IMG/VR virus record: IMGVR_UViG_3300035684_000074
Location: 1-48,760 of that record
Direction: 5' to 3' (one strand)
Origin: a virus
DNA length: 48,760 nucleotides
Positions 4,542 to 24,758 of the stretch are shown piece after piece (the first letter of the stretch is position 1; every line of letters starts with the position of its first letter). The notes under the pieces are model-generated. The model was not told the DNA's origin, searched no databases, and saw only the letters and a program-made list of their open reading frames with translations. The translations under genes and the position numbers were made by a program.

Positions 4542-4641
4542 GGCGCGTGCTTCCCTCCCGCGCCCGGTTGTACCGCACCCGCACCGACGCTGTCTCCTTC
4601 CGGATATTCACCGCACGCGCGCCCGCCTCTTCTCCCTGGGC
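4542..4641. promoter_or_regulatory. Divergent intergenic region
   Basis: About 100 bp between the minus-strand kinase-like gene and the plus-strand gene at 4642. It contains the late-type CCTCTTCTC element for the plus-strand gene and presumably the promoter for the minus-strand gene, which I cannot pick out. Confidence 0.4.
4626..4634 (+). promoter_or_regulatory. CTTCTC late element, copy 1 (leaderless class)
   Basis: CCTCTTCTC, then 7 nt, then the ATG of the gene at 4642. There is no purine-rich ribosome-binding site between them. See the findings for the full set of 12. Confidence 0.65.
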
Positions 4642-4842
4642 ATGAAGCACTTCTTCACGAAGAGGCACCTGGAGTTGGCGGGCGTGAGGGTGGAGGAACC
4701 CCAGGTACCACCGCCCAACCTCCCGCCGCAGTGCTGCGAGAGGGCAGTGGCCACCCGGTGCTTCTGCGAGGCGGGGACGTGGGCATGCCCGGACCACGGC
4801 ACCCGCGGGCAGCCCTGCAACCCCAAGCTCTCTCACGATTAG
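4642..4842 (+). CDS. Small Cys-rich protein of unknown function
   Basis: 66 residues. The start is set by the phage late element ending 7 nt upstream; the longer ORF from 4531 lacks support. The N-terminal half is basic then proline-rich (VPPPNLPPQ). The second half carries seven Cys (QCCERAVATRCFCEAGTWAC, then C near the end) and two His, suggesting a small metal-binding or disulphide-linked fold. It is followed by a strong terminator, so it forms its own transcription unit. I do not recognise the family. Confidence 0.55.
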   Translation: MKHFFTKRHLELAGVRVEEPQVPPPNLPPQCCERAVATRCFCEAGTWACPDHGTRGQPCNPKLSHD

Positions 4843-4863
4843 AGGCCGACTAGCCCCGGCCTC

Positions 4864-4910
4864 CGCGAGCCCCGGAAGGCACTCCCCCCGCCTTCCGGGG
4901 CTCGCGTCTT
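4864..4910 (+). terminator. Strong intrinsic terminator
   Basis: A perfect 17-bp stem (4864-4880 with 4890-4906), a 9-nt C-rich loop, then TCTTTTCG. It lies 22 bp after the small Cys-rich gene and isolates it from the next plus-strand genes. Confidence 0.88.
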
Positions 4911-4961
4911 TTCGCCTCACCCACACAGCCCGTGGCGTCTCGCCACACCTCGGAGGAGCCC

Positions 4962-5429
4962 ATGCCCTGCCCTATCCCGTCGTACCTGCCCACCCCGCCC
5001 ACTCTCACCACCCTCTTGAAGGAACTCGCCGACATCGCCCCGGCCAGGGCCGCCGAGCTCGCGGACATCGTCCAGGAGGTGGAGACGCGCCAACGCCAGG
5101 CCCGCGAGCAACTCGCCGCCGCGGAGTTGGCCCTCTCTCTGGTGAAGCCCGACGGCTCGCGCCGGGCCGCCGAGGAGTGGGGCATGCGCGACACGGACGT
5201 CAACAGCCATCGGCTGGGCCTTCGCCTCATCGGTGTCGATGTGGACGGCGTGCGCAGGCAGCTCGAGCGGGAGCTCTTCCTTGCCCGGTGCACCCATGCG
5301 AGCGGCCGCAAGCCCTGTGCTGCCTGCCAGGGCACCGGGGACGGGGAGTCGCTCGAGGCGGGCACCTGCCTCGTCCCGTCCTCCTGCGACGCCTGCGAGG
5401 GCGCGGGGTACGTCACCCGGCGACCGTGA
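4962..5429 (+). CDS. Coiled-coil protein with two DnaJ-type CxxCxGxG zinc motifs
   Basis: 155 residues. ATG at 4962 follows GGAGGAGCCC, which favours it over the upstream in-frame ATG at 4932. Residues about 15-55 form a heptad-rich helix (LLKELADIAPARAAELADIV and on). Near the C-terminus, CAACQGTGDG and CDACEGAGYV are two halves of a DnaJ-like cysteine-rich zinc finger. Proteins with this knuckle are common in phages but have no single function; a chaperone or nucleic-acid role is possible. It precedes the secreted-protein gene by 64 bp. Unknown function. Confidence 0.6.
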   Translation: MPCPIPSYLPTPPTLTTLLKELADIAPARAAELADIVQEVETRQRQAREQLAAAELALSLVKPDGSRRAAEEWGMRDTDVNSHRLGLRLIGVDVDGVRRQLERELFLARCTHASGRKPCAACQGTGDGESLEAGTCLVPSSCDACEGAGYVTRRP

Positions 5430-5435
5430 GTCACG

Positions 5436-5444
5436 CCCCTTCTG
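5436..5444 (+). promoter_or_regulatory. CTTCTC late element, copy 2 (variant, leader class)
   Basis: CCCCTTCTG, one mismatch, 7 nt after the preceding stop codon. It lies 49 nt before the ATG at 5494, which has its own AGGAGG ribosome-binding site. Confidence 0.45.
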
Positions 5445-5493
5445 GTTTGCACGCCGGCCGCATGCCGCGAGCTGGCGCACCAGGAGGTAGACG

Positions 5494-6345
5494 ATGACGA
5501 AGTACCTGTTGCTCTCCGTGCTGGCCGTGCTCACCATCGCGAGTCCCGCCCGGGCCTCGCTCGGGCCCAACGCCGACCTGCCCGGGTTGGACCCGGCGAC
5601 GTGGGGCCGCATCCACCAGCGGGCGGACCTCATCACGAAGGCGATCGCGAAGGCGTACCCCAACGCGACGCCGCAGGACGTCGCCTGCATCACCGCGTGG
5701 CTCCAGTTCGGCCTCTACCGGCGCGTGCAGGTGCTCGACGCGCTCACGGACGCGCCCACGCTGTTCGTGCACATGTCCGGCGAGGACGGGGCGCACGACA
5801 TGGGCAACGTGAACACCGGCAACAAAGGCAACGTCCCCTACAAGCACCTGGTGACGGACGAGGCCGAGGCGCCTGGCAACGCGACGGACAGGCTGCGCAA
5901 CAACGTCAACGACACCTGCCGGGGCGGTAATGGAGGGGGCGGCTCAGGCCAGAATGCGGTGGATCCGTTCCGCGTTGTGGAGAAGTGGAAGGCCAACAAC
6001 CCCAACTGGGACACCGACGCCGCCTACGGGCCGCAGCTCTTCCCGGAGTACCTTCACCGCGTGCGGACGCTCCGCGGTGCTGTCACCGCCCAGGGCGTAG
6101 CCGAGAAGGTGGCCGCCAAGCACCCGGGGCTCGACCTCCGCGCCATCGGGGAGCGGCTCCTGAAGGGGCAGGCCACCGGACAGGACGTTGAGCAGCTCCG
6201 CGTCGCACTGGAGCTCGCCGGGGCCAGCATCATCCTCAACGCCCGGGGAGTCCTCACTACCGCGCCCGCTCGAGTCGTGCCGTTCTGGGTGGTCCCGCCC
6301 GACAGGCTGAAAGGCTCGGAGCCCAAACCGGGCGAGATGTACTGA
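5494..6345 (+). CDS. Predicted secreted protein, unknown family
   Basis: 283 residues with a clear N-terminal signal peptide (MTKYLLLSVLAVLTIASPARA; cleavage likely after ARA, residue 21). ATG follows AGGAGG. A Gly-rich break (GGNGGGGSG, about residue 150) separates two halves. The N-terminal half contains DVACITAWLQFGLYRR; the C-terminal half is helical and ends hydrophilic. I see no transmembrane helix after the signal, no lipobox and no enzyme motif. A bidirectional hairpin follows. Its place between int and the packaging genes suggests a lysogenic-conversion or envelope-acting product, but this is a guess. Confidence 0.6.
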   Translation: MTKYLLLSVLAVLTIASPARASLGPNADLPGLDPATWGRIHQRADLITKAIAKAYPNATPQDVACITAWLQFGLYRRVQVLDALTDAPTLFVHMSGEDGAHDMGNVNTGNKGNVPYKHLVTDEAEAPGNATDRLRNNVNDTCRGGNGGGGSGQNAVDPFRVVEKWKANNPNWDTDAAYGPQLFPEYLHRVRTLRGAVTAQGVAEKVAAKHPGLDLRAIGERLLKGQATGQDVEQLRVALELAGASIILNARGVLTTAPARVVPFWVVPPDRLKGSEPKPGEMY

Positions 6346-6369
6346 CGCACGCCCGATAGGCGGACATGA

Positions 6370-6410
6370 GAAGGGCCCGGCCTCCATCTCGGAGACCGGG
6401 CCCTTCGTGT
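6370..6410. terminator. Hairpin between convergent genes
   Basis: GAAGGGCCCGG (6370-6380) pairs with CCGGGCCCTTC (6396-6406), extended by CCTC/GGAG inside. The plus-strand tail is GTGTTTC. It lies between the plus-strand secreted-protein gene and the minus-strand holin-like gene. It terminates the plus strand; for the minus strand a U tract is lacking. Confidence 0.7.
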
Positions 6411-6421
6411 TTCAGACGACG

Positions 6422-6652
6422 TCAGGCGCTACTGGCGGCGCAGGCCCGGGGAGGCGAGGCCGAGGATGCCGCCGAGGGCAACGATGCCGGCGCACACCTT
6501 CGCAGCGAGCGTGTGCGGGGGAGCGTCTGGGCGCCGACGGCGGCGAGTCCCACGAGACCCACCAGCCAGGGCACGGCGGCGGGCGGGACCACGGGGGCGC
6601 CGGTGGGGCTGGCGTTGTTGGGCTGTGTGGAGGTGGCGTTCTGCTGGGACAT
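6422..6652 (-). CDS. Holin-like two-helix membrane protein, apparently frameshifted
   Basis: As read, 76 residues. ATG at 6652 follows CAGGAG. After a polar N-terminus comes one transmembrane helix (VPWLVGLVGLAAVGAQTL), then an Arg/Ser/Ala-rich tail that looks out of frame. The -1 frame over the same bases encodes AAKVCAGIVALGGILGLA, a clean second helix, then PGLRRQ and a stop at 6429. The two frames meet at a CCCCC run (CTCCCCCGC). One extra C, or a -1 ribosomal slip, would give a class II-holin-like protein of about 74 residues. It could be a recent mutation, an assembly error or programmed slippage. Paired with the TM/coiled-coil gene upstream on the same strand. Confidence 0.6.
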   Translation of the reverse strand: MSQQNATSTQPNNASPTGAPVVPPAAVPWLVGLVGLAAVGAQTLPRTRSLRRCAPASLPSAASSASPPRACAASSA

Positions 6653-6701
6653 GGGTGCTCCTGGGTTGTGGGCACCGGCGAGCCGGGCCCGGGTGAAAAG
6701 T

Positions 6702-7004
6702 TCAGCGGCTGGCGGTGGGCTTCTCGGTCAGCTTCTCGACGGCGCGGGAGAGGCGGGCGATCTCGCTATTGAGGGCGCGGAGCTGCTCCTCAAGCCGCCC
6801 GGCCTGGATGGCCGCGTTCGACTGGGTGGCGGCGACACGTGAGAGGTCGGCCTCGGCCGCGGTGGCGCGGCGCTCGAGGTGACGGACGTCCGCGCCCAGC
6901 GTGCCCCACTGCACGGCGAGCCCGAGCAGGGTGATGACGATGGGCACGGCCATGGTGAGCCAGGGCGAGGGTTTGGACTCGGCGGGGGTGGTGGGCGTGC
7001 TCAT
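6702..7004 (-). CDS. Short membrane-anchored coiled-coil protein (spanin- or XhlA-like)
   Basis: 100 residues. One N-terminal transmembrane helix (about 15-35, PWLTMAVPIVITLLGLAVQW) is followed by a long coiled coil (DVRHLERRATAAEADLSRVA through ARLSRAVEKLTEK). This layout matches inner-membrane spanins and XhlA-type lysis accessory proteins, and it sits beside the holin-like gene. The ATG at 7004 is fixed by a late element (CCCCTTCTC on the minus strand) ending 7 nt upstream, with no Shine-Dalgarno. Both lysis-type genes run against the surrounding plus-strand late genes. The exact role is inferred from topology. Confidence 0.65.
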   Translation of the reverse strand: MSTPTTPAESKPSPWLTMAVPIVITLLGLAVQWGTLGADVRHLERRATAAEADLSRVAATQSNAAIQAGRLEEQLRALNSEIARLSRAVEKLTEKPTASR

Positions 7005-7011
7005 GCCCGGC

Positions 7012-7020
7012 GAGAAGGGG
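7012..7020 (-). promoter_or_regulatory. CTTCTC late element, copy 3 (leaderless class, minus strand)
   Basis: GAGAAGGGG on the plus strand, so CCCCTTCTC on the minus strand, ending 7 nt before the ATG at 7004. It shows that the element follows gene orientation, not genome orientation. Confidence 0.65.
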
Positions 7021-7344
7021 CGAGGCGCGCGACGGTGCGCTTGTCCTACACGCGAGACATTACCGTGGGAGTGAAACGGCCCAGCATGTCGCACATGTAG
7101 GCGTGGAGGGGACCCCCACCCTCAAAAACCGGACCTGCGGGCCAAATTCGGGATTGCTCGGCGGGTCACAATCACGCGCTCGCGGTTACCCCACGCTGCC
7201 CCACGCGGACCTTCAGTCGAAACTGTCGGACGACCCCCCGAATTTTGGGGTGTAGGGCCCCTACCCCGGCCGTAAGCGCTCGGAATCACGTCCAGCGCCC
7301 CGCCGGGAGGGGTCTTCAACGGCGCAAAACTGGAGCCCTCCACG
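7021..7344. other. Divergent intergenic region without genes
   Basis: About 320 bp between two divergent late elements (7012-7020 minus, 7345-7353 plus). I see no supported ORF. It contains a GC-rich inverted repeat around 7247-7267 (GGGGtgTAGGG with CCCTACCCC) that could be an operator or a terminator. Confidence 0.45.
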
Positions 7345-7353
7345 CCCCTTCTC
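7345..7353 (+). promoter_or_regulatory. CTTCTC late element, copy 4 (leader class)
   Basis: CCCCTTCTC, 38 nt upstream of the ATG at 7392, which has its own GGAGGG site. The flank GTGGGTGTC just after the element recurs in copy 9. Confidence 0.6.
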
Positions 7354-7391
7354 GTGGGTGTCACCTCGCAGTCAGCCCATGGAGGGCACCC

Positions 7392-8564
7392 ATGTCGACC
7401 CAGTCCAGCAGCCCCCCCACCCCCTACACGCCGCCCCCCGAACTCCTGGCCGCCGCCGAGAAGATGCTGTTCGAGGCCTCGCCCGGCGAACTCGCCATCG
7501 CCGACAAGCTGTACGTCGCCTACGGCTCCGTGACGGGCCAGCGCTCGGCCGTCACCGGTGCCGAGCTGCCCGCCTTCGACATCTGCCGTCCGCTCGTCCG
7601 GGCCGGCTGGCTCGCGACCGTCCGCGCCGCCCGGGAGTGCTACAGCGTCACGCCGCAGAGCAAGGCGTTGCGCATCGGCGAGTGCTCCATCGCCGTCGAT
7701 GCCACCGAGGCCGAGGCGGCCATGTCCCGGCTGGAGGCCAGGGCCGAGGCGCTCGTGGCCAACCTGGAGAAGGCCGACGCCCTGCTGAGCAGGGTCGATC
7801 AGGTCCAGGGCCGCACCCCCGTCACCTGCATCCACGGACACATCGACTACTCCGCCGTGGTCGAGCGCCTGGCGCGCCACGGATACGCGACGGGTCCACG
7901 CGGCCCGCAGGGTGGCCTGAGGGTGGACGTGCGGCAGGGCGAGGACCCGGGCCGCTGGGCCGAGGTCGCCGACAGCGTGCTGGTGACTCTCAACAACGGG
8001 GGTCCGGACGCCGTCGCCATGGCCCTGCACCTCATGATGGGAGGCCCGCGTGGTGGCGAGGCCGAGCGTCTGATCGAGGAGGCGGGTCGGCGGGAGACCG
8101 AGCAGCGCAATGGCCCCGGCGGGTTCCTCCTGCGTATCCGTGACCTCCTGTCGCGGCTCTGGTCTGGGGGGCAGGAGGTGACCGAGGAAGCCGAGGAGGA
8201 CCTGTACGACGAGCCCGCCGACGAGGAGCCGGGCCCGGTTGCGTCCATGACGCTGACGGCGTGGACGCCCGAGACCGGGGAGGCGTTGGTCAACTTCGCT
8301 CAGGGCCGCGTGGCCGAGCTGCGGCATGGCCCCGGGGTGCCGCCGGGTGACACCATCAACATCAGCAGCGAGGGTCAGATTGACCGCTTCCTCATGGGCA
8401 TCTCGGAGATCGCCAGCGCCACCCGCGACCTGGCCGAGGCGTCGAAGGCGGTCGACCTCTCTGGCACCGACGTCATCGATCTCATCTACGACGTGACGAA
8501 GGTCCTGCACTCCCGGGTGAAGGCGCTCGCCCCGCCGTCCACCGGGCCCACGGCCAACGCCTGA
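7392..8564 (+). CDS. Phage protein of unknown function preceding the terminase genes
   Basis: 390 residues. ATG at 7392 follows GGAGGGCACCC. Residues 1-20 are Pro/Ser-rich; about 115-145 is a short coiled coil (AMSRLEARAEALVANLEKAD). There is an acidic stretch near 270 (EVTEEAEEDLYDEPADEEPG). No signal, membrane helix or catalytic motif is visible, and I do not recognise the family. It opens the plus-strand packaging/head module and carries a late element, so a virion or packaging role is plausible. The gap to TerS is 47 bp and contains the next late element. Confidence 0.65.
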   Translation: MSTQSSSPPTPYTPPPELLAAAEKMLFEASPGELAIADKLYVAYGSVTGQRSAVTGAELPAFDICRPLVRAGWLATVRAARECYSVTPQSKALRIGECSIAVDATEAEAAMSRLEARAEALVANLEKADALLSRVDQVQGRTPVTCIHGHIDYSAVVERLARHGYATGPRGPQGGLRVDVRQGEDPGRWAEVADSVLVTLNNGGPDAVAMALHLMMGGPRGGEAERLIEEAGRRETEQRNGPGGFLLRIRDLLSRLWSGGQEVTEEAEEDLYDEPADEEPGPVASMTLTAWTPETGEALVNFAQGRVAELRHGPGVPPGDTINISSEGQIDRFLMGISEIASATRDLAEASKAVDLSGTDVIDLIYDVTKVLHSRVKALAPPSTGPTANA

Positions 8565-8596
8565 TGTCCCCGGGGTGGGCGGCGCAGGTCCGCCCG

Positions 8597-8605
8597 CCCC
8601 TTCTC
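8597..8605 (+). promoter_or_regulatory. CTTCTC late element, copy 5 (leaderless class)
   Basis: CCCCTTCTC, then CCTGGC, then the ATG at 8612. No Shine-Dalgarno sequence. Confidence 0.7.
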
Positions 8606-8611
8606 CCTGGC

Positions 8612-9256
8612 ATGGCCCGTCCCAAGGGAATGCCGCCGGAGCTGATGGGCGAGCCCCCAGAGGGGGACGGACCCGACGCGCCCGAGTTGCCCGACCCGCT
8701 GGAGGGCTACCACTTCCGGCCAGGCCGCAGGGGGCCGCGCACGACGCTCACCCGGGAGATGATTCCTGTCATCGCCAAATGGCTTGCGCGCACAGGCGTC
8801 TTGCGCATCGCCGCGGCGAAGGCGGGCGCCTCGGAGGACGCCCTCGGGAAGTGGATCTCCCGGGGGCGCGACGCAGCCGCGCGGCGCAAGAGCAGCCTGT
8901 ACACGGAACTCCTCATCGCGTGCGAGGAGGCGTGGGCCCATCGGTTCGCCCACCTCATCCAGCTCGGCGAGCAGACCGTGGTGGACCGGCACATGAACCC
9001 GCGCTTCGTCACGTGGCTCATGTCCGTCACCGGACCGAAGCACTTCACCGTGCCGCGCGAGCAGGCCGCCCAGGCCCCAGGTGGCGGGCTCGGTCCCGCC
9101 TTCGAACTGGTGACCCCCGAGGCCGCGAAGGCCAGCGTGCTCGGCAAGCTGATGCGCTTCCTCGAGGAGGACGACAAGAGCAGCCCACCGGAGGCGCCGC
9201 CCGCGGCGGAACCTGAGTCCGGCCCGGCCGCTACCGCCTCTGATGGGGGTGGGTGA
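8612..9256 (+). CDS. terS: Terminase small subunit (predicted)
   Basis: 214 residues, directly upstream of TerL with overlapping stop and start (TGATG). After a proline/acidic N-terminus, residues about 45-85 form a helix-turn-helix (MIPVIAKWLARTGVLRIAAA, then SEDALGKWISRG), as in small terminases that recognise pac/cos DNA. A central helical segment may oligomerise, and the C-terminus is Pro/Ala/Glu-rich and disordered. The start is set by the late element 6 nt upstream; the ORF extends to 8564 but that stretch includes the element. Function rests on the HTH and its position. Confidence 0.75.
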   Translation: MARPKGMPPELMGEPPEGDGPDAPELPDPLEGYHFRPGRRGPRTTLTREMIPVIAKWLARTGVLRIAAAKAGASEDALGKWISRGRDAAARRKSSLYTELLIACEEAWAHRFAHLIQLGEQTVVDRHMNPRFVTWLMSVTGPKHFTVPREQAAQAPGGGLGPAFELVTPEAAKASVLGKLMRFLEEDDKSSPPEAPPAAEPESGPAATASDGGG

Positions 9257-10818: not shown

Positions 10819-10824
10819 ACCGCG

Positions 10825-10833
10825 CCCCTTCTC
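10825..10833 (+). promoter_or_regulatory. CTTCTC late element, copy 6 (leaderless class)
   Basis: CCCCTTCTC starts 6 nt after the TerL stop and ends 6 nt before the portal ATG. Confidence 0.7.
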
Positions 10834-10839
10834 AGAGGC

Positions 10840-12207
10840 ATGGCCTCTCTTCGCTCACGCCTCAAGTCTGCCATGTCGGGGCTGCTGCTCGGCCCGTCGA
10901 TCAGCCGCCCCCTCGTGTACCGCGTGCCCGTCCTCCCCTACGCGCCGAGGCAGGGCTCGAGGGCAGTGCTCGCCGCCTACCGCACCAATGCCTGGCTGCG
11001 GGCTGTCGTGGACACCGTCGCCGAGGCAACCGCCACTCCCCGCTGGCGCGTGCTCAAGCCCACGACGACGCAGGGCAAGGCGCTCGCCCATGTCTGCAAG
11101 TCATTGGGCATCAACGAGAGGACGAAGGATGGGCGCCTCGAGCGGCACAAGGCGCTCGCCCGGGGCGTGGAGCGCGGGGACCTCGTCGAGCTCCGCTCGC
11201 ACGAACTGCTCTCCATCCTGGAGAACCCCCACCCCCAGTTCACCGGCCGGGCCCTGAGGAAGCTGCAGCAGGTGCACCTCGACCTCGCTGGAGAGTCATT
11301 CCTCTGGCTCCGTCGTACACCCGATGCGCTGCGGCGCGTGGCTGGCTTCGAGGTGGTTCCCCCCCCGTGTGTCACCCTCACCCCGACGGAGACGGAGAAC
11401 GGCTGCTACTTCATCCACTACAACCTGTTCACCGGGGCCGTCCCAGAGTCCGACGTTGTCTGGCTTCGACACCTGGACCCGGAGAATCCCCACGGCCGGG
11501 GGGTCGGCAAAGGGCTCGCCCTCGGCAACGAGCTGGATACGGCCGAGGCCATCCAGGGCGCGCGGATGGCTACGTTTGCCCGCGGGGGCCTACCGGCTGC
11601 GGTGGTCGGCATCGACGAGGGGACGAACGGAGACGATCGCGCGGAGGAGTTACAGGCCGAATATGAGGAGAAGTTCAACTCCCCCGAGAGCGCGGGGCGC
11701 GTGTGGTTCATCTCCGGCAAGGCCACCCTCGCCCAGATTCAACAGGACTTCCGCGCACTGCAGATGGACGAAACAGAGAAGGGGCTCCGGGACTACGCCC
11801 GGCAAACCTACAACGTCTCGCCCGAGCTCATGGGGGATCTCACCTCCGCCAACCGGAGCACCAGCGAGGAGGCCAAGTACACGCTAGCCGAGTACGCGGT
11901 GCTTCCTCGTCTGGAGTTCAAGCGCACCGAGTACCAGCTCCACCTCGCCACGCGCGTCGATCGCGACGCCATCCTCGACTACGACGACCCGCGGCCGCAC
12001 TCCTGGGAGCGGCGGCACCAGGCGATGACGGCCGCCTACCACGAGTCCGTGTACATGAACGAGGCGCGCGAGCACATGGGGCTCCCGCCTGACCCGGCCC
12101 TGGACGGCGTCCGGTGCAAGCCCATTCCCGGCGCCCAGCCCGTGCAGGACGCGCGTCCATCCGAGCCGCGCAACCCGCCCCCTCCCCGCGGGCCCGCCGC
12201 TGCCTGA
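10840..12207 (+). CDS. Phage portal protein (HK97 family)
   Basis: 455 residues, the usual size. It forms the dodecameric ring at the capsid vertex through which DNA is packaged. Family features include the conserved N-terminal core (RTNAWLRAVVDTVAEATATP), VWLRHLDPENPHGRGVG and the downstream helical region around QQDFRALQMDETEKGLRDYA, then VSPELMGD. The C-terminus is Pro-rich. It lies between TerL and the prohead protease, the canonical HK97 order. ATG at 10840 has a late element instead of a Shine-Dalgarno sequence. Confidence 0.92.
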   Translation: MASLRSRLKSAMSGLLLGPSISRPLVYRVPVLPYAPRQGSRAVLAAYRTNAWLRAVVDTVAEATATPRWRVLKPTTTQGKALAHVCKSLGINERTKDGRLERHKALARGVERGDLVELRSHELLSILENPHPQFTGRALRKLQQVHLDLAGESFLWLRRTPDALRRVAGFEVVPPPCVTLTPTETENGCYFIHYNLFTGAVPESDVVWLRHLDPENPHGRGVGKGLALGNELDTAEAIQGARMATFARGGLPAAVVGIDEGTNGDDRAEELQAEYEEKFNSPESAGRVWFISGKATLAQIQQDFRALQMDETEKGLRDYARQTYNVSPELMGDLTSANRSTSEEAKYTLAEYAVLPRLEFKRTEYQLHLATRVDRDAILDYDDPRPHSWERRHQAMTAAYHESVYMNEAREHMGLPPDPALDGVRCKPIPGAQPVQDARPSEPRNPPPPRGPAAA

Positions 12208-12211
12208 GCCG

Positions 12212-12220
12212 CCCCTTCTC
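12212..12220 (+). promoter_or_regulatory. CTTCTC late element, copy 7 (leaderless class)
   Basis: CCCCTTCTC begins 4 nt after the portal stop and ends 6 nt before the protease ATG; the whole gap is 19 nt. Confidence 0.7.
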
Positions 12221-12226
12221 CTGCGC

Positions 12227-12922
12227 ATGAAGACGGCTCGAATTGCTATCAAACGCGCGGAGTCCCCGCCGTCCCTGGCGGCGGCAGCCGGGCCGGTGTT
12301 CGCGCTGCTCGACCCTCCTGGTGTCTACGACCGCGACGGTGACCGGATGGGCGCGGGCAACCTGCGGCTGCCACCAGGACATAGAGACGTCCCCCTCTAC
12401 TGGGACCACAGCCACCGCGAGGAGAAGGCGGTAGCGCGCATTCCCATCGGCCGGGCCGTCGTCTGGCGCGAGGGAGACCAGTGGTACATGCAGCCGAAGT
12501 GCGACTTGGTGGATGACCTCTCGCGCACCATCGCCGCCAAGGTCGAGGCGGGCACCATCGATGCCTGCTCCATCGGTTACATCACCCTCGCTGCTACGCC
12601 CAACGGCGCCGGCCCCTCGGGCCGAGGCGAGGATGTCATCACAGGCGAGCTCGTGGAGGTTTCTCTAACAGGCATCGGCGCCAAGGCCGGGGCCGTGAGG
12701 GTGAAGCACATGGCGAAGTGGAAGACGATGGAAGAGGCCCAGGCCGGTTTCGAGCAGATGGCGGCGGACCTCGAGGAGTGCAAGGCGATGTTGGCGCAGG
12801 TGCTCGAGCGCCTCCCCAAGCCCACCACCGAGAAGGACGCCCCGCCCCCGGAGGACACGCCCCCCGCCGACGAGGGCCCGGTGTCGAAGTGGTTCCGGGG
12901 ACTGTCGCCCGCGAAGAGGTAG
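12227..12922 (+). CDS. HK97-type prohead maturation protease (S78)
   Basis: 231 residues. It cleaves the capsid scaffold or delta domain inside the prohead. The herpesvirus/HK97 protease fold is supported by His of YWDHSH (about 61), Ser of DACSIGY (about 115) and the following EVSLTGIG strand. The last 60 residues are acidic and Pro-rich and could act as a scaffold or tether; no separate scaffold gene is seen. The gap to the capsid gene is 43 bp and holds the next late element. The catalytic pair is complete. Confidence 0.9.
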   Translation: MKTARIAIKRAESPPSLAAAAGPVFALLDPPGVYDRDGDRMGAGNLRLPPGHRDVPLYWDHSHREEKAVARIPIGRAVVWREGDQWYMQPKCDLVDDLSRTIAAKVEAGTIDACSIGYITLAATPNGAGPSGRGEDVITGELVEVSLTGIGAKAGAVRVKHMAKWKTMEEAQAGFEQMAADLEECKAMLAQVLERLPKPTTEKDAPPPEDTPPADEGPVSKWFRGLSPAKR

Positions 12923-12926
12923 CCCA

Positions 12927-12935
12927 CCCCTTCTC
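12927..12935 (+). promoter_or_regulatory. CTTCTC late element, copy 8 (leader class)
   Basis: CCCCTTCTC, 30 nt before the capsid ATG, which has its own AGGAGA site. A leadered mRNA suits the most highly made virion protein. Confidence 0.65.
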
Positions 12936-14621: not shown

Positions 14622-14656
14622 GCCCAACCCCCTGTTCTACCCCGGCCGGGGAGGCG

Positions 14657-14665
14657 CCCCTTTTC
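14657..14665 (+). promoter_or_regulatory. CTTCTC late element, copy 9 (variant CCCCTTTTC, leader class)
   Basis: One mismatch. It lies 36 nt before the amidase ATG, which has a GAGG site. The flank GTGGGTGTC matches that of copy 4. Confidence 0.5.
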
Positions 14666-14701
14666 GTGGGTGTCTCCCCGGTTCTCGTTTCGAGGTGCCC
14701 C

Positions 14702-15277
14702 ATGCAGGAGATGTTCGACGTACCCTCCCCAAATTTCTACGGCCGCAGCGGCACACCCGTAGACGTGGTGCTCCTACACCACACCGGCCCCGGATCCGAG
14801 TCCGGCCACCTCTCCTGGTTGCGCAACCCCAAACCGTGCGATGCGACGGGGAAGCGCGTCTCCCGCGTGTCCGCGCACTACCTCGTCGGCACCACCGGGA
14901 AGGTGTGGCGCCTGGTGGATGAGACCAACGCCGCGCTGCACGCTGGACTCGGGCTCCTGCCCTGGGAGAAGGGCGAGACGTACAACTTCAACCTGCGCTC
15001 CATCGGCATCCATGTGGTGAATCCCGGCGACGGGGTGACGCCGTTCACGGAGGCGCAGTATCTCGCGTTGGAGCGGCTCGTGTCGGCCATCGCGCGGCGG
15101 CTGGAGTGGGACTGCGTCACGTTCCTCTATGGATACACCATCAATCTGATTCCCGGCAGGCGCGGGCGGCGTGGCTACATCCTCGGCCACCGCGACATCG
15201 CTCCGGGGCGGAAGACGGGCCCAGCGGACAACTTCAACTGGCAGCGCATCAAGCGGGCGCTCGGGTCGGGAGCGTAG
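14702..15277 (+). CDS. N-acetylmuramoyl-L-alanine amidase, predicted endolysin
   Basis: 191 residues, Amidase_2 (PGRP/T7 lysozyme-like) fold. Zinc-ligand regions are VLLHHTG (about 21-27) and ILGHRDIAPGRKTGPADNF (about 160-178), which carries the second His and the catalytic Lys region. SAHYLVGTTGKVWRLVDET is the conserved middle strand. No signal peptide is visible, so it needs the holin to reach the wall. ATG at 14702 follows GAGGTGCCCC. It lies unusually between head and connector genes, far from the holin-like gene at 6.4-6.7 kb, and has its own late element. It could instead be a virion-associated hydrolase. Confidence 0.88.
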   Translation: MQEMFDVPSPNFYGRSGTPVDVVLLHHTGPGSESGHLSWLRNPKPCDATGKRVSRVSAHYLVGTTGKVWRLVDETNAALHAGLGLLPWEKGETYNFNLRSIGIHVVNPGDGVTPFTEAQYLALERLVSAIARRLEWDCVTFLYGYTINLIPGRRGRRGYILGHRDIAPGRKTGPADNFNWQRIKRALGSGA

Positions 15278-16768: not shown

Positions 16769-16777
16769 AACGCGCCA

Positions 16778-16786
16778 CCCCTTCTC
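16778..16786 (+). promoter_or_regulatory. CTTCTC late element, copy 10 (leaderless class)
   Basis: CCCCTTCTC, then GGGTGC, then the ATG at 16793. It starts 9 nt after the previous stop. Confidence 0.7.
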
Positions 16787-16792
16787 GGGTGC

Positions 16793-17233
16793 ATGGCAGG
16801 TCGCGGATACAGAATGAAGAAGGCGGTGGAGGTGGACCTATCCGCCCTCATCCGTCTTCGTTCGCAGGCTGAGAAGGTGCTCAACGACCTCGACAGGCCC
16901 GTGCTCGACGCCGCCCAGCTCGGCCTGGACCAAGCCCAATTCCTCGTCCCCCGTGGGGGCGCACCGGATGACCCACTGAACATCGCCGACACGGCCTTCG
17001 TGAGCATGCCCCACCACAACCTCTCGCGTCGGCTGAGCACCACGGTGACCGCTGGCTACGACCACCCCCAGGCCGGTCCGGCCCATGAGGGCTGGCACTG
17101 GGGCAAGCAGACGAAGACGCCCCCGCCGCACTGGTTGCGCCGCGGCTTCAAGCGCGGGGTGCGGAAGCTGCTCATCAAGGGCGTCAGCGCTCGACTCATG
17201 AAGTCCCTGGCGAAGTACTTCCCGAAGAAGTGA
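16793..17233 (+). CDS. HK97 gp10-like tail-completion protein
   Basis: 146 residues, basic. The VDLSALIRLRSQAEKVLNDL helix and the mid-region TVTAGYDHPQAGPAHEGWHW, followed by a basic C-terminus, resemble HK97 gp10/neck proteins that often carry a YaxxxxxEyG-type motif. The ATG at 16793 is chosen because the late element ends 6 nt before it; an internal ATG at 16814 is possible. It precedes the tail-tube gene by 9 nt. Confidence 0.6.
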   Translation: MAGRGYRMKKAVEVDLSALIRLRSQAEKVLNDLDRPVLDAAQLGLDQAQFLVPRGGAPDDPLNIADTAFVSMPHHNLSRRLSTTVTAGYDHPQAGPAHEGWHWGKQTKTPPPHWLRRGFKRGVRKLLIKGVSARLMKSLAKYFPKK

Positions 17234-18321: not shown

Positions 18322-21051
18322 ATGAGCAAGAACGGACCGGGCGGACTGAAGGTGGGAGACCTGTACGTCTCCGTCACGGCCAGCATCGGCGAGGCGATCA
18401 AGAACCTCTCGGCCATCGTGGACGCGGTGGAGGAGGCGGCGGACCAGATTGAGGAGAACATGTCCAAGGCGGCCGCCGCCCTGGGGGACTTCTCCGACGG
18501 ATTGCTCACCGTTTCGGCTCTCGCCGCCGCCGCCTTCGCCGTGGCCACCCAGACGTCCGCGCCAGCAAAGAAGGCGCTGGAGGATCTCAAGGGCGCCATG
18601 ATGACGCTCGGCACGGAGGTGGGCACCACCTTCATCCCGCTGGTGCGGGAGATGACGATGTGGGTGAAGACGGCCGTGGCGACGTGGCGCAACCTCACGG
18701 ACGCCCAGAAGGACAGCATCGTCACCTTCGTGAAGTACGCGGCCGTCATCGGCGTGGGTGCGAAGGGCCTCGAGCGTACGCTCATGTTCACGAAGAGCTT
18801 CGCAGAGGGGACCGTGGTTCTCGCGCGCGTGGCCGGGCCCACCGCTCAGGCCGTCAGCAAGGGCTTCACCACCATCTCCACCCATGCCGGACTGGCGCTC
18901 GACAAGGTGGCGGCGCTGGGGAAGAAGCTCGGGGAGTTGGGCAAGTCCGACGTGGGCAAGACGTTCAAAGGCTTCGACGTCGGCAAGGTGGGCGCGGGCT
19001 TCGACAAGGTGGTGTCCTCCATCAAGGCCGCCATCCTCGCCATCCCCGCGGCGCTCGCTCTGGGCGCGGCGAAGTTCAAGGCCCTGGCGCTCGCGGCCGC
19101 CCCCATGTTGGCCACCGTCGGGGCCATCGCCCTAGCAGTTGGTTCGCTCGTAGTACTCGCTGCGGTTCTGCGTGCGGCATGGGACGAGGCGGGTGCCGGC
19201 ATCAAGGCCTGGTTCGAAGGCATCACCGGCGAGGCGGTGGCGCTCGGGAAAACCATCTCCGGCTTCGTCGGGGACATGTTCTCCTCGCTGACGGGCTTTC
19301 TGCGCAAGGGCGTGGAGGCGGCCTTCGAATTCATCGCCGCCCAGGTGCGGTGGATCGCGAAGATGGCCGCGCCCGTCGCCAAGTGGGTGGGGGCCGACAA
19401 GGTGTCGGCCATGTTCGAGGCCATGGCCAACACCTCGGGCAAGAAGATGCTCGAGTACCTGGACCAGGGTGTGACGCAGCTCTGGGACGCCGGGCGCGCC
19501 AAGGCCGAGAGCGCCATGGCCGGCGTGCAGGACATCGCCGACAAGGCGGGCGAGGCCATCAAGAACGGGGCGAAGGCGGGGGCGGACATCCTCACCACCT
19601 CCAAGGCGTCGTTCGACCGAGGCATGGCCCTCCTCAAGAAGGACCTGGGCTTCAGCATCGAGCTGCCGTCCTTCGACCTGCCAGACATTGGGGACCCGAA
19701 CACCGTCCAGGCCACGAAGACGCTGGATGAGGTGAAGAAGGCGACCGAGGACGCGGCCAGCTTCGCCAAGGATGCGCTGGAGTCCGCGCGCGACGTGACG
19801 GGCGGGATGCTGGAGCTGGCGCTGAAGACGAAGGCGCTGATGGAGAAGAGCCAGGAGTGGCTCGCCTCCAACGTGATGGCGCCTCAGTTCGAGCTGCTCT
19901 TCCGCGAGACGCTCACCCCGGCCATCACCGCGATGAAGGACGCGCAGCAGGAGATCGCCGACCGGGCCAAGGCTCTCGCCGAGGCCATGGCCCAGGCCCG
20001 GGACGCCCTCGCCCAGAAGCTGCTGGGGCGACTGGGAGACGCGCCGAGCATCGTCGAGTCCGGCATGCAGGGGGCCGCGGTGGCGGGCCCTCTGGGAGCC
20101 GTCGCGGCCGTCGTGGGGGACCTGCTCACCCGCTCGGAGCAATTCAAGGTAATCGTCGAGATGGTGAACACCGTCATCCAGAAGGTGGCGGACGTGCTCG
20201 GGCGGATGCTGACGCCGCTCATGCCCCTGGTGGGGGCGGTGCTCAACGTCGTGGACGTGGTGGTGTCCGCGCTGGGCCCGGCGCTCACGGCCGTGGGGCA
20301 GGTGCTGGAGCCCCTCGCGCCCATGTTCACGCTGCTGGGGACGATGCTGGCGCCGCTGTTTCAGGTACTGGGCTCGGTGCTCAGCGCGCTGATGAAACCC
20401 ATCACCGCGCTGGTGTCCCACGTCATGCCCGCCCTGTTCGAGGTATTCAAGGTGGTGGGCCTGGTCGTGATGAACGTTGTGCTGGGCATCCGCGAGGCGT
20501 GGAACGCGGTGGTTGGTGGCGTCCAAGCCGTGCTGCGTGGCATCGCCCAGTTCGAGATCTTCGGCGGCCGGCCATTCGAGTTCCTCAACGGCTGGGCGGA
20601 CGGCCTGGCCGGCGCGACGTCGGACACGAGCGGGCTGGCACTGGCCATCCAGAACCTCACCGACATGACGTTCGAGCAGGCCACGGCGGCGGCCCAGCAG
20701 GCAGCGGCCGCCTACCAGGCCGCGAACGCCATGGACCGGATGACGCAGTCCCTCACCAACGCGCCCAGCACCTGGAAATACGCACTGCGCAGCTTCGAAG
20801 CGCAGAGCGCCCGCCCCGGTGGACTGGTGCTGCCCACCTCTCAGCCAGCCAGCACTGGCGGCGGGGCCTCGCCGAGCTCGCCCGCGGCGCCCTCGTCGCC
20901 TGCTCCCTCCGCCCCGCTGGTGAACACCATCAACATCAACGTCCAGAACGAGTACGCGGCCATGTCGGAGCTGGAGCGCCGGTTGGATGAGCGCGCCTGG
21001 CGCTCGCGAGGCTCCCGCGGACGGGGCCCGTACGCACACGAGGTCCCCTGA
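18322..21051 (+). CDS. Tape measure protein
   Basis: 909 residues, long, helical and Ala-rich, with hydrophobic stretches (about 235-285, IPAALALGAAKF through GSLVVLAAVLRAAW; and about 590-730). It sets tail length and helps DNA entry. By the usual rule of about 1.5 Angstrom per residue this suggests a tail near 135 nm (inference). ATG at 18322 follows GAGAGGAAGG. The C-terminus is Ser/Pro/Ala-rich and ends in an ELERRLDER-type helix. Position after the frameshifted chaperone makes the call firm. Confidence 0.92.
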   Translation: MSKNGPGGLKVGDLYVSVTASIGEAIKNLSAIVDAVEEAADQIEENMSKAAAALGDFSDGLLTVSALAAAAFAVATQTSAPAKKALEDLKGAMMTLGTEVGTTFIPLVREMTMWVKTAVATWRNLTDAQKDSIVTFVKYAAVIGVGAKGLERTLMFTKSFAEGTVVLARVAGPTAQAVSKGFTTISTHAGLALDKVAALGKKLGELGKSDVGKTFKGFDVGKVGAGFDKVVSSIKAAILAIPAALALGAAKFKALALAAAPMLATVGAIALAVGSLVVLAAVLRAAWDEAGAGIKAWFEGITGEAVALGKTISGFVGDMFSSLTGFLRKGVEAAFEFIAAQVRWIAKMAAPVAKWVGADKVSAMFEAMANTSGKKMLEYLDQGVTQLWDAGRAKAESAMAGVQDIADKAGEAIKNGAKAGADILTTSKASFDRGMALLKKDLGFSIELPSFDLPDIGDPNTVQATKTLDEVKKATEDAASFAKDALESARDVTGGMLELALKTKALMEKSQEWLASNVMAPQFELLFRETLTPAITAMKDAQQEIADRAKALAEAMAQARDALAQKLLGRLGDAPSIVESGMQGAAVAGPLGAVAAVVGDLLTRSEQFKVIVEMVNTVIQKVADVLGRMLTPLMPLVGAVLNVVDVVVSALGPALTAVGQVLEPLAPMFTLLGTMLAPLFQVLGSVLSALMKPITALVSHVMPALFEVFKVVGLVVMNVVLGIREAWNAVVGGVQAVLRGIAQFEIFGGRPFEFLNGWADGLAGATSDTSGLALAIQNLTDMTFEQATAAAQQAAAAYQAANAMDRMTQSLTNAPSTWKYALRSFEAQSARPGGLVLPTSQPASTGGGASPSSPAAPSSPAPSAPLVNTININVQNEYAAMSELERRLDERAWRSRGSRGRGPYAHEVP

Positions 21052-21052
21052 T

Positions 21053-21889
21053 ATGGCGCTGCTGAAACTCAACGGGGTGGACGTAGAGGCAACAGCTTCC
21101 GAGTGGGAGCCGGTGACGCTCGGGGAGATGACGCGCTCTCTCAACGGGGCGCCGCGCTCCACGGCGAAGGTGAGAAAGAAGAACCTGCGCTACACCTCCT
21201 CGCTCCTCACCCTGCCCCACGCCCAGGCCCTGCGCGGGCTCATCGAGGGCGACGGGCACGTGCTGTCTTTCGAGGACGCGTCCTCTCCCACCGCCTACCT
21301 CTACACCTCCCGGGAGGTGCCGCCACTGGCCGCCGCGGGCGTGTCCCGGGCGGCCTCGGGCGGAGTGCGAACGGACTCCTGTCTCGTCGTCCCTGGGGGC
21401 GTCTATGCAACGTGGGAGCTCGGAGATCTCTCCACCGCCACGTACCTCTTCTGGGTGGAGGCACAGGGTCCAGGCGACGCACAGCCCTACATGGAATGGA
21501 ACCACTTCATTTACAGGAGCGACGGCACCCACTGGCGTAACGGCGTCCTGAACGCTTCGGGCCCGGAGGACACGTTCTATCCGGAAGCGCACCTCCTCGC
21601 AGAGTTCTCCGAGGGCACGCTCACGCTGGGCTTTCAGGGCGGCGTCGAGGGCCTTCGCCGGTATGCCGAGGTGGTGGTACTCCCCTACCTCATCCCCACC
21701 GAGTGGGGCGCGGGCATGTACGCCTTCCATGCCGCACGCGCGTGGCCCCGCCTGCCCGCCGTCCACGCCGTGGATCCGCGCCTACCCCCAGGCGGGCTGC
21801 TCTGCCAGGGGGAGGTGGGCACCTCCAAGGCAATGCACATGCGCAGCTCCGTGGGCGAGGTGTTCGACTTCACCCTCTACGGGACGTGA
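21053..21889 (+). CDS. Distal-tail-like protein
   Basis: 278 residues, starting 1 nt after the tape measure stop. The N-terminus (LLKLNGVDVEATASEWEPVT) is a typical opening of tail-tip proteins that cap the tube. The remainder is beta-rich, with a possible carbohydrate-binding-like insert (VYATWELGDLSTATYLFWVE). It precedes the hub/fibre gene. The distal-tail role is inferred from order. Confidence 0.6.
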   Translation: MALLKLNGVDVEATASEWEPVTLGEMTRSLNGAPRSTAKVRKKNLRYTSSLLTLPHAQALRGLIEGDGHVLSFEDASSPTAYLYTSREVPPLAAAGVSRAASGGVRTDSCLVVPGGVYATWELGDLSTATYLFWVEAQGPGDAQPYMEWNHFIYRSDGTHWRNGVLNASGPEDTFYPEAHLLAEFSEGTLTLGFQGGVEGLRRYAEVVVLPYLIPTEWGAGMYAFHAARAWPRLPAVHAVDPRLPPGGLLCQGEVGTSKAMHMRSSVGEVFDFTLYGT

Positions 21890-21894
21890 GCGCG

Positions 21895-21903
21895 CCTCTT
21901 CTC
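21895..21903 (+). promoter_or_regulatory. CTTCTC late element, copy 11 (leaderless class)
   Basis: CCTCTTCTC, then CCGGGGC, then the ATG at 21911. It begins 5 nt after the previous stop. Confidence 0.65.
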
Positions 21904-21910
21904 CCGGGGC

Positions 21911-24337
21911 ATGCGCCCCCTCTCCGAGCTGCAGCAGCGTCGCCTCAAGAACCCCGCCGGCTACACGGTGCGTGGCCGCGTCCTCGTCCAGGGCCCGAGT
22001 AGCACCTGGGTGGACCTCACCCACTTCCACGAGCGTGACTTTCTCGACGGGGTGGACGTCGACGAGAGCCTCGATAGCCCCGTGGGCCAGGCCACCGTAC
22101 GCGTGGTACGTGAGGTGGACGGGCTCTCGCTGGCCCCGCTGGTGACGTCCTCCCGGGCCAACAACCTGGGCGGAGGCTACGCCCCCCTGCTGGACCCCAA
22201 CCGCCTCTTCCGGGTGGAGGTGGCGCTGGGCCCGCCGCGCGAGCTCGCCACCAACCCCCAGTGGCTGCCCCTCTTCCTCGGGCGCATTGACCGGGTGGAC
22301 TCCGGCAACCCGGACACCATCACCTTTACGGGACGGGACCTGGGCGGCGTGCTGCAGGACGTGTGGACGGCCGAGGAGAAGGTGTACGGCAGCGACGCGG
22401 GCGTGCCGCTGGAGACGGTGTGCAACGCCATCCTCACCGACGCCCAGCTCTCCGACTTCGCCCTCTACACCCCGGTGGCCTCCACCCAGGCGCTGGGCAA
22501 GTACAAGCAGGATTACGAACCCACCATGGACGGGCTCGCGAAGCTGGCGGCCGGCCGTGGCTGGGAGGTGCGTCAGAAGCTGCGGCCAGACACCGGCACA
22601 TGGGGCTTCTGGTTGTGGGGGCCGGACCGGGCGGCCACCGTCCCGGTGTGGACCTACACCGCCAACGACTACCAGTACCTCGGCGAGCTCAGCGTGGGCC
22701 TCGAGGACGTGCGCACCGCGGTGGAGGTGGTGTACCCGGACGCCTCGGACCTGGATGCGGCGGGGCAGCCCAAGAGGAAGACGGTGCGCCGGGAGTCGGC
22801 GGCCGCCCTGGCCCGGTACGGCTACCTCACGAGCGGTGGCACGCGCCTGCACCGCCTCATGAGGGTGACGGAGGGGGCCACCACCAACATCCGCTCCGCC
22901 GCAGAGGCCGGGCGGCTGGCCGACTCGGCCCTCGCCGACCTCTCCACCACGGACATGGGTGCCACGGTGGAGGTGGCCCTGCACCCGGGGCTGGAGCTGG
23001 GGGACCTGGTCGCCCTCGCCCCCAACGGCATCAACTTCTCCGCGGAGCAGCGGCTGGCCGTGCGCCAGGTGACGCACTCCCTCAACTCCACCAGCGGCAG
23101 GACGGTGGTGCGGCTGCTCGGCAAGCCCGCCCTGGGGCCCCGGGTGTGGCTCTCCATGGAGGCGAGGCCCGGCCTCGCGCCGGGCTCCCCCTTCACCGGG
23201 CCCGCCGCGCCCTCGGGCCTCACCGTCACCAACTCGGTGACGGGGGCGGTGCTGCTCTTCACAGCGCCCAACCTCACCTCCGGAGGCCCCGCCGCTGAGG
23301 AGTACGAACTGCACGTGTACGACTCGCCGGGCACAGCCCTGTCCCAGGCCACGAGGCGCTCTGTGAGCAGCTCCACGAGCTTCGACCTGACGGGCCTGAC
23401 AGCGGGCACCACCAAGTACGCCCGGGTGCGCTCGCGCGACAGGCGCGGAAACGTGGGCCCAGCCTCGGACGAGGTGACCCTCGCGCCCAGGTACCTCGCC
23501 CCGGGGATGCTACTGCCCAAGGTGACGTTCGGCACGCTGCCGCTCAACGGTGAACTCGAGGCCCTCACGGACCCCGCCCAGCCCCCGGACACAGTGAGCT
23601 TGCTCGGCGGCACCTGGGGCAGCGACGTTATCACCTCCACCGACTCCTACGCAGGGGCTCGAGCCGTCCTCTTCCCCCCTGGCATGGCCGCGGCCACCCT
23701 CGTTTGGCAACTGTTTACTGTCCGCGAGGGCGAGCAGTGGAGCTTCAGCACCTGGTTCAAGCAGACGGTGGCGGGCGTGCGCTCCGGCACCCTGGGCGTG
23801 AACTGGCTGTCCAGCCTGACTGGGGGGGTAGGCTTTAGCAGCGTCGCCCTGGGTACGGCCAGCACGCCAGCCAACATATGGCAGCGCGGCGTCGTATCCG
23901 TGGCGGCGCCTGTTGGCGCCCGCTACGCCGCAGTGCAGGTGCAGAAGTGGAGCAGCTACGCCGGCGCACTCGCGGTGGACTCGGTGGACGCGCTCCGCCA
24001 GCAAGCCTTCGAGGCGTGGCGGGACGTCACCTTCCAGAACAACTGGCTCCCCTTTACCCAAGCCGTTTACGGCATGGTGCGCTACCGCAGGAATGACGCG
24101 GGAGAGGTGTGGGTAAAGGGCGTGGCGGGCGCGCCCTCGCCAGCTCCAGCCGCCAACAGCACCGTGTTCACCCTGCCCTCCGGCTACCGGCCCGGTGAGC
24201 GCCGACTCTGGAGTACGTCCACGGGCACGGCGCTCGTGGACGTGGAGGTGTGGCCGGACGGCACCGTGCGAGTCCCCTCCATCGCGGCGGGCGGGCGGGT
24301 GCCGCTCGACATGGTGCGCTTCCAGGCCGACTTCTGA
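21911..24337 (+). CDS. Tail-tip hub/fibre protein with a fibronectin type III-like domain
   Basis: 808 residues. The N-terminal 420 look like a baseplate-hub domain (DSPVGQATVRVV; PLFLGRIDRVDSGNPDTITF; ELGDLVALAPNG). About 435-525 is a fibronectin III-like domain (GPAAPSGLTVTNSVTGAVLL, YELHVYDSPG, YARVRSRDRRGNVGPASDEV). The last 280 residues are beta-rich and end with GYRPGERRLWSTSTGTALVD, a pattern common at fibre tips. It is the best candidate for the host-recognition protein. It ends 3 bp from the convergent moron gene, with no visible terminator between. Confidence 0.78.
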   Translation: MRPLSELQQRRLKNPAGYTVRGRVLVQGPSSTWVDLTHFHERDFLDGVDVDESLDSPVGQATVRVVREVDGLSLAPLVTSSRANNLGGGYAPLLDPNRLFRVEVALGPPRELATNPQWLPLFLGRIDRVDSGNPDTITFTGRDLGGVLQDVWTAEEKVYGSDAGVPLETVCNAILTDAQLSDFALYTPVASTQALGKYKQDYEPTMDGLAKLAAGRGWEVRQKLRPDTGTWGFWLWGPDRAATVPVWTYTANDYQYLGELSVGLEDVRTAVEVVYPDASDLDAAGQPKRKTVRRESAAALARYGYLTSGGTRLHRLMRVTEGATTNIRSAAEAGRLADSALADLSTTDMGATVEVALHPGLELGDLVALAPNGINFSAEQRLAVRQVTHSLNSTSGRTVVRLLGKPALGPRVWLSMEARPGLAPGSPFTGPAAPSGLTVTNSVTGAVLLFTAPNLTSGGPAAEEYELHVYDSPGTALSQATRRSVSSSTSFDLTGLTAGTTKYARVRSRDRRGNVGPASDEVTLAPRYLAPGMLLPKVTFGTLPLNGELEALTDPAQPPDTVSLLGGTWGSDVITSTDSYAGARAVLFPPGMAAATLVWQLFTVREGEQWSFSTWFKQTVAGVRSGTLGVNWLSSLTGGVGFSSVALGTASTPANIWQRGVVSVAAPVGARYAAVQVQKWSSYAGALAVDSVDALRQQAFEAWRDVTFQNNWLPFTQAVYGMVRYRRNDAGEVWVKGVAGAPSPAPAANSTVFTLPSGYRPGERRLWSTSTGTALVDVEVWPDGTVRVPSIAAGGRVPLDMVRFQADF

Positions 24338-24340
24338 GGC

Positions 24341-24724
24341 TCAGCGCTGGCAGTCCTGGGTGATGACGGCCACGCCCTCTCCCTCCGAGAGCGTTAGGGT
24401 GCAGAGCTGGTGCGCTGCCGCCGCCACCACCTCGCCCAGATACTCGCGGCGGTGGAGACCCTCGGCCACCACGAGGGCCCCGAGGACGAGGCGCGCGCCG
24501 CGTGGCCCGGCCATGGCCTCGGGCAGCTGCACCACATGCCCCGCCGGCAGCCAATGCGTCTCGTAGAACTCCCCCGAGGCCTCGCGCCCTCCCCCGCTCA
24601 CATAGAACGTGGCCTGTTTGGCGGTGGCGTTGCGAAGGATGACTGAGACGCTCCCGTGTTCAGTTGGCTCCGGACCGCACGCAACCGCGATAACGATCGC
24701 CCCGGATAGACATAATCTGCGCAT
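24341..24724 (-). CDS. Predicted small lipoprotein (moron)
   Basis: 127 residues from the ATG at 24724, chosen because CAGGAG lies 6 nt upstream; an in-frame ATG at 24730 is possible. Signal peptide with lipobox AIVIAVAC, so a lipid-anchored Cys near residue 18. The mature part is beta-rich (SVSVILRNATAKQATFYVSG) with two later Cys. It is transcribed against the tail operon and preceded by a late element, like a moron expressed with the late genes. Superinfection exclusion or an outer-membrane role is possible. I do not recognise the family. Confidence 0.6.
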   Translation of the reverse strand: MRRLCLSGAIVIAVACGPEPTEHGSVSVILRNATAKQATFYVSGGGREASGEFYETHWLPAGHVVQLPEAMAGPRGARLVLGALVVAEGLHRREYLGEVVAAAAHQLCTLTLSEGEGVAVITQDCQR

Positions 24725-24749
24725 ACGCATCTCCTGGCTCACGACACAG

Positions 24750-24758
24750 GAGAAGGGC
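24750..24758 (-). promoter_or_regulatory. CTTCTC late element, copy 12 (minus strand, GCCCTTCTC)
   Basis: Lies between the stop of the membrane moron (24767) and the lipoprotein ATG (24724), 25 nt before that ATG or 19 nt before the ATG at 24730. A CAGGAG site intervenes. Confidence 0.5.

Follow-up and report, generated by a model that had tools for sequence, protein, structure and literature searches.

The DNA analysed here (the window) comprises positions 1 to 48,760 of the IMG/VR virus record IMGVR_UViG_3300035684_000074, i.e. 48,760 nucleotides (nt). Its plus strand carries genes for terminase, portal, protease, head protein and endolysin, and the minus strand holds an early block. A short element with the core C[GA]CCCCTTCT stands in front of genes of the late region and is in many cases placed directly before the start codon. 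A preliminary description, made from the letters alone, had listed twelve sites of the 9-mer CCCCTTCTC or one-base variants of it and read them as a possible -10-like promoter of leaderless transcripts. All twelve are present at the positions and on the strands it gave. They fall into a leaderless class, in which a gap of 6 or 7 nt separates the 9-mer from the start codon, and a class in which the gene start is led by a Shine-Dalgarno (SD) sequence further downstream:

4624..4642, plus strand: element CGCCTCTTCTC, gap 7, leaderless class; ATG 4642 of a Cys-rich protein of 66 amino acids (aa); homologous gene with element in the relatives L139 and L053
5434..5444, plus strand: element CGCCCCTTCTG, SD-led class; ATG 5494 lies 49 nt downstream
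7002..7022, minus strand: element CGCCCCTTCTC, gap 7; ATG 7004 of a spanin/holin-like gene (6702-7004, 100 aa) with a weak PHROGs lysis match
7343..7353, plus strand: element CGCCCCTTCTC, SD-led class; gene at 7392, 38 nt downstream
8595..8614, plus strand: element CGCCCCTTCTC, gap 6; ATG 8612, terminase small subunit
10823..10842, plus strand: element CGCCCCTTCTC, gap 6; ATG 10840, portal; element and start methionine kept in relatives
12210..12229, plus strand: element CGCCCCTTCTC, gap 6; ATG 12227, head maturation protease
12925..12935, plus strand: element CACCCCTTCTC, SD-led class; ATG 12966 (major head protein) 30 nt downstream
14655..14665, plus strand: element CGCCCCTTTTC, SD-led class; ATG 14702 (endolysin) 36 nt downstream
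16776..16795, plus strand: element CACCCCTTCTC, gap 6; ATG 16793, 146-aa protein in the position of a tail-completion gene
21893..21913, plus strand: element CGCCTCTTCTC, gap 7; ATG 21911, 808-aa protein, tail hub/fibre-like by position; homologue with element in L109 and L141
24740..24760, minus strand: element CGGCCCTTCTC, gap 7 to GTG 24742 of gene 24341-24742; alternative SD-led ATG slightly downstream

The last of these had been listed as SD-led, but its class is ambiguous between the two starts. One further exact 9-mer at 11776 on the minus strand, absent from the earlier list, lies within the portal gene and fails the extended consensus, as it has no upstream C. With at most one mismatch, CCCCTTCTC occurs 40 times in the window compared to 18.5 +/- 4.3 times in shuffled sequences, and the stricter pattern CCCCTTCTCN{4,5}GCATG was found five times, its reversed control not once. 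The element in the window is real and well beyond chance.

Conservation, spacing and the nature of the signal

A single-protein search with the portal among viral contigs gave no match; relatives were found by scanning IMG/VR with the element pattern and subsequently by a portal alignment (A1). The pattern scan returned chiefly chance matches in unrelated phages. The relatives were those in which the pattern preceded a long open reading frame (ORF), typically right after a stop codon, and they formed a coherent group with the pattern directly 5' of portal, protease, terminase, tail-completion, hub and lysis genes. The portal alignment yielded 36 loci in genomes of Myxococcus, Corallococcus and relatives (one locus record is titled Comamonas, and its genome belongs to the same family sample). 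Hosts that carry such prophages include Corallococcus carmarthensis CA043D and Myxococcus sp. CA023. After removal of near-copies, 32 loci of one phage family, prophages of Myxococcaceae, contained 141 copies whose 9-mer is followed by a start codon at a distance of 5-7 nt (mostly 6-7), as well as 98 further copies. The core C[GA]CCCCTTCT occurred 214 times in the family loci, compared to five times for its reversed control.

The profile of the non-redundant copies gives the full element as C[G/A]CCCCTTCT-N4/5-GGGC-ATG-N-CC, in which the 10-mer C[GA]CCCCTTCT is near-invariant. Hence, the motif claimed at first is real, but its last C varies and the element reaches as far as GGGC-ATG-NCC. In agreement with the earlier remark that no -35 consensus is visible, the profile of this group (clade 1) contains no conserved block upstream of the 10-mer.

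The two distance classes hold across the relatives: the first ORF starts 7-8 nt after the 10-mer in 115 of the 177 distinct copies, with a smaller cluster at 28-43 nt. In the leaderless class the start codon is ATG in 129 and GTG in 12 of the 141 cases, whereas the second class has the element approximately 30-60 nt before SD-bearing starts. An SD of at least 5 nt was found at none of the 141 leaderless starts, as the preliminary description had noted for the short gaps, compared to 35/86 starts of the second class and 93/240 other genes; with at least 4 nt the counts are 22/141 and 74/86 for the two classes, respectively. The start codons were assigned by a home-made gene caller, with conserved N termini as a check. 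Portals that align over 453-455 aa have their first methionine in common, which indicates that these start codons are real.

Such an arrangement might also be expected from a translation-initiation signal acting in the RNA without any promoter, be it an SD substitute, a pyrimidine tract bound by S1 or a phage protein, or a start-site hairpin of the type CCCC...GGGG. In the majority class, which lacks an SD, the element lies exactly at the SD position, and the GGGC beside the ATG could pair with GCCC. However, the large second class places the same element far upstream of SD-bearing genes. If the element is a promoter, the start site should still be found 6-7 nt downstream of it in this class. 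We collapsed the SD-led leaders to 32 independent clusters and compared 24 positions; the pyrimidine-purine step peaks at gaps 6 and 7 (15.1 and 11.2 of 32, against a typical value of about 7), i.e. at the offsets that the ATG occupies in the leaderless class. Furthermore, SD-led leaders aligned on the purine of this step have C at +5 and +6 in 58% and 74% of cases, as has the CC in ATG-N-CC of the leaderless class. These features at a constant distance from the element argue for a promoter over a translation signal. The hairpin was rejected as the main explanation, because the outer stem position varies between G and A opposite a constant C, leaving the pairing without covariation support. 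Moreover, cousin prophages with other sequences at this place (see below) have a conserved block further upstream, as bipartite sigma promoters do. A pure translation signal thus appears quite improbable, and the -10-like, leaderless-transcript reading has the best support, since the geometry of the start region, the co-occurrence with a sigma factor and the exchange of the element in the cousins all agree with it.

A stem such as CTGGGG...CCCCAG, with its 3' foot directly at the SD, is frequent in SD-led leaders of the window (7345-7392, 14657-14702) and of many relatives. This stem may protect or regulate the mRNA.

A probable phage sigma factor and its proposed partner elements

A candidate factor that the preliminary description had not seen can be added to its promoter reading. 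It is encoded on the minus strand of the window:

26664..27659, minus strand: phage sigma-70-family factor, 331 aa, with regions 2, 3 and 4, proposed to recognise the element (profile, alignment and structure searches)
26257..38372, minus strand: early/replication gene block with RusA (28153-28842), a DnaA_N-domain protein (29063-30283) and others; the sigma gene lies near its 3' end

No element was found before any gene of this early block. Taken alone, the window copy of the sigma factor gives a weak match to Pfam Sigma70_r2 (E 0.007, below the curated cut-off). Homologues are present in 15 of the 21 sister records, or 16 of 22 with a profile, and among 16 members Sigma70_r2, which stands for region 2 with core binding and -10 recognition, was detected in 14 (best E 3.7e-5), NCBIfam sigma70 in 15, and Sigma70_r4 with the C-terminal helix-turn-helix in 6 (best E 2.8e-5; columns 330-400 of the sigma alignment A2; not in the window copy alone). 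Signatures of regions 2, 3 and 4 are visible in this alignment, and its profile matches sigma factors of solved structure in the PDB (RpoS, 2e-9; RpoH, 3e-6; SigA) over regions 2-4. In addition, a Foldseek search of the PDB with an AlphaFold model gave sigma-factor chains as best matches, with E values down to 6e-5 and a low global TM score. The gene 26664-27659 probably encodes a divergent phage sigma-70-family protein and the recogniser of the element. A tblastn search with the window sigma against 50,697 phage records gave no match; among 195 sampled genomes of the phylum, only the 23 already known from the family scan had matches, with none outside the family. The sigma matches in L164, L162 and G060/G027 are reported with in-frame stops, which could be real truncations or alignment overruns.

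The family sample of 96 genomes was divided into those with at least two elements (n = 23) and those with none or one (n = 73). The sigma gene is present in 22 of the former (one partial match only) and in one of the latter (a fragment), which corresponds to a Fisher p of 2e-19; on contigs with the sigma gene, 97 of 100 elements are no more than 30 kb away from it. Mx8, the best known myxophage, served as negative control and has neither the element nor a sigma factor of either clade. The extended pattern was found in 35 of the 96 genomes. Nine host genomes of 9-12 Mb contain 0-14 copies each, clustered on prophage contigs, and the reversed controls gave none. Of the stray copies inspected, four fall within coding sequence of the host, and several mark the start of a portal or lysis gene in a prophage remnant. 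The element is therefore essentially confined to prophages within host genomes; it is not equally common before host genes (equal frequency there is what the preliminary description had named as speaking against its reading), and the host copies are almost all prophage-borne.

Portal searches also led to cousin prophages whose late genes are homologous; some of these cousins share a host genome with prophages of the first kind (G055, G088). In the cousins, C[GA]CCCCTTCT occurs 0-1 times per locus, and every cousin read has a diverged sigma factor homologous to that of clade 1 (hhalign E 2.5e-14). Two other elements take its place. That of clade 2A, TGAGCCAC-(spacer)-CGGAA-(spacer)-CACSCATTTA, has 137 copies, with 0 in reversed controls and 0 in clade 1; that of clade 2B, RGCCA-(spacer)-CGGAAAGCG-YCCCCATWNA, has 64 copies, with 0 in reversed controls and 2 in clade 1. 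Thresholds and patterns for these clades were picked after viewing the sequences, with the reversed controls and cross-clade counts as guard. The 2A and 2B cores stand mostly 6-9 nt before ORF starts, and clade 2 has a -35-like TGAGCCAC block, unlike clade 1. Cousins with CACSCATTTA and YCCCCATWNA elements, both preceded by GCCAC/CGGAA, are L284-L324, L272-L276 and L154; they carry a sigma-like gene of their own. In a tree of the sigma factors, clade 1, clade 2 and 2B form well-supported separate groups, and the element type agrees with this tree. L273 (minus strand, reverse-complement position 11678) and L300 (plus strand, 11339) have late genes of the 2A type and a diverged sigma factor and have lost the 2A core, the core before one late gene being of the CACAACATCTA type instead of CACGCATTTA. 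That this change tracks the sigma factor is suggestive only, as it concerns two genomes and few sites.

Late genes of temperate phages often rely on a small DNA-binding activator, and the element could be the operator or activator site of another late regulator of the phage (Ogr- or C-like), with a host sigma factor transcribing from nearby; the Cys-rich 66-aa protein (4642-4842) would be conceivable as such a regulator. However, the 6-7 nt to the inferred start put the element within the region covered by the polymerase, a spacing that leaves no room for a host -10 sequence in between. The 66-aa protein, which has no family match and whose own gene carries the element, was rejected as an Ogr-like activator. 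Moreover, the phages encode a sigma-family protein, and the type of element follows the clades of this protein, so that we regard an operator as still less probable than a translation signal. The weakest alternative, a promoter of a host alternative sigma factor (e.g. sigma-32-like) with phage sigma and element merely co-inherited, can draw on the similarity of CCCCTTCT to the E. coli sigma-32 -10 sequence CCCCATNT (PMC6687850), but it is hardly credible, because genomes without these prophages hold essentially no elements and prophages sharing one host genome (G055, G088) differ in the element according to their own sigma factor. A T7-like phage RNA polymerase was not suggested by the Pfam and PHROGs scans run on the window genes.

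Hence, we consider it highly probable that C[GA]CCCCTTCT is the promoter core of the phage-encoded sigma factor, fused to late start codons so that leaderless late mRNAs arise. The core would be a composite of extended -10 and -10 sequences without a conserved -35, recognised by the sigma factor encoded at 26664-27659 on the minus strand. After induction, early genes including that for the sigma factor would be made first, and host core RNA polymerase carrying the phage sigma would then bind the element before each late gene or small late operon. From the spacing we infer that the first transcribed base is a purine located 6-7 nt past the 9-mer. In the larger class this purine would be the A of ATG (or the G of GTG), and the resulting mRNA would be translated without a leader, whereas in the smaller class it would lie roughly 15-45 nt upstream of the SD-led start.

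Several points weigh against this interpretation. Common descent within one phage lineage would likewise bring sigma factor and element together, region 4 is present in the sigma factor and yet clade 1 has no conserved -35, the predicted sigma structure is only moderate (pLDDT 75, pTM 0.46), and CCCC...GGG could fold into a weak hairpin beside the ATG. Furthermore, five element-bearing records are without detectable sigma factor (G007, G010, G015, G019, G086), which is plausibly due to draft assemblies or virus fragments.

Some other features of the window deserve mention. The left end of the late region encodes two small Cys-rich proteins, the 66-aa protein already described and one of 155 aa (4962-5429) with a weak DnaJ CXXCXGXG match. 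An inverted repeat GAAGGGCCCGG...CCGGGCCCTTC at 6366-6405, after the gene 5494-6345, is likely a terminator. The early block includes a large DUF6884 protein (31548-34904), a homologue of PHROG 874 without assigned function (34862-35815) and a weak Arr-ms (rifampin ADP-ribosyltransferase) match (37917-38372). Near the right end, and possibly beyond the prophage, 44441-45418 on the minus strand encodes a protein with a Mu-type transposase C-terminal domain.

Known systems and meaning for the phage family

Cluster K mycobacteriophages repeat a short conserved sequence, which contains a Shine-Dalgarno, just before many start codons. The element described here is like these start-associated sequences in its repeated start-proximal position and differs from them in being without a Shine-Dalgarno. 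Similar in its way of working, and only in this, is phiEco32 gp36, which like gp47 of phage 7-11 is a phage-encoded late sigma factor (PMC8948821). There, too, a phage sigma programmes the host core polymerase, one short late-promoter element (tAATGTAtA) is used with starts 6-8 nt downstream, and diverged sigma factors of relatives pair with a different promoter (PMC8948821). The absence of a -35 in clade 1 is in keeping with promoters that consist of one element, like those of gp36. However, phiEco32 is a coliphage with an AT-rich element, no fusion of its promoters with start codons is described there and gp36 has no region 4 homology, whereas we deal with temperate myxobacterial phages, a GC-rich element, a start codon at the predicted +1 and a sigma factor with region 4.

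Leaderless mRNAs are known from the Thermus phage phiYS40, where they make up most middle and late transcripts (PMC3594737). The middle and late promoters of the Thermus phage P23-45 are extended -10 promoters and suffer less from loss of the sigma4/-35 contact (PMC7403470); in that system the target of the phage factors is the host sigma-A holoenzyme, whereas here the phage has its own sigma and host genes are without such an element. Promoters of sigma-32 (RpoH) have a -10 sequence resembling both CCCCTTCT and CCCCATWNA (PMC6687850), and RpoH is among the PDB profile matches; nevertheless, clade 1 has no -35, this is not a heat-shock regulon and the profile scores RpoS above RpoH.

In the literature on Myxococcus phages we found no report of leaderless or late-sigma transcription, nor a described late-gene switch of these myxobacterial prophages. 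We likewise found no account of a sigma factor of a phage with its promoter joined to start codons throughout the late module. Phage-encoded sigma factors have been described before, as have leaderless mRNAs of phages, but we found no report of the two combined.

Beyond the window, it seems fairly probable that at least three mutually exclusive pairs of sigma factor and promoter (CRCCCCTTCT; CACSCATTTA with TGAGCCAC; YCCCCATWNA with CGGAAA), each with its own sigma and leaderless mRNA, are the standard mode of late expression in this family of temperate phages of soil-dwelling myxobacteria. Natural sigma clades with different cognate elements make sigma-promoter co-evolution directly testable, supply candidate orthogonal GC-rich promoters for myxobacteria and offer a test bed for leaderless translation beyond Actinobacteria and Thermus. 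Moreover, the element serves to find and annotate such prophages and their true start codons. If the pairs are indeed exclusive, co-resident prophages in one cell would be insulated from each other's late switch.

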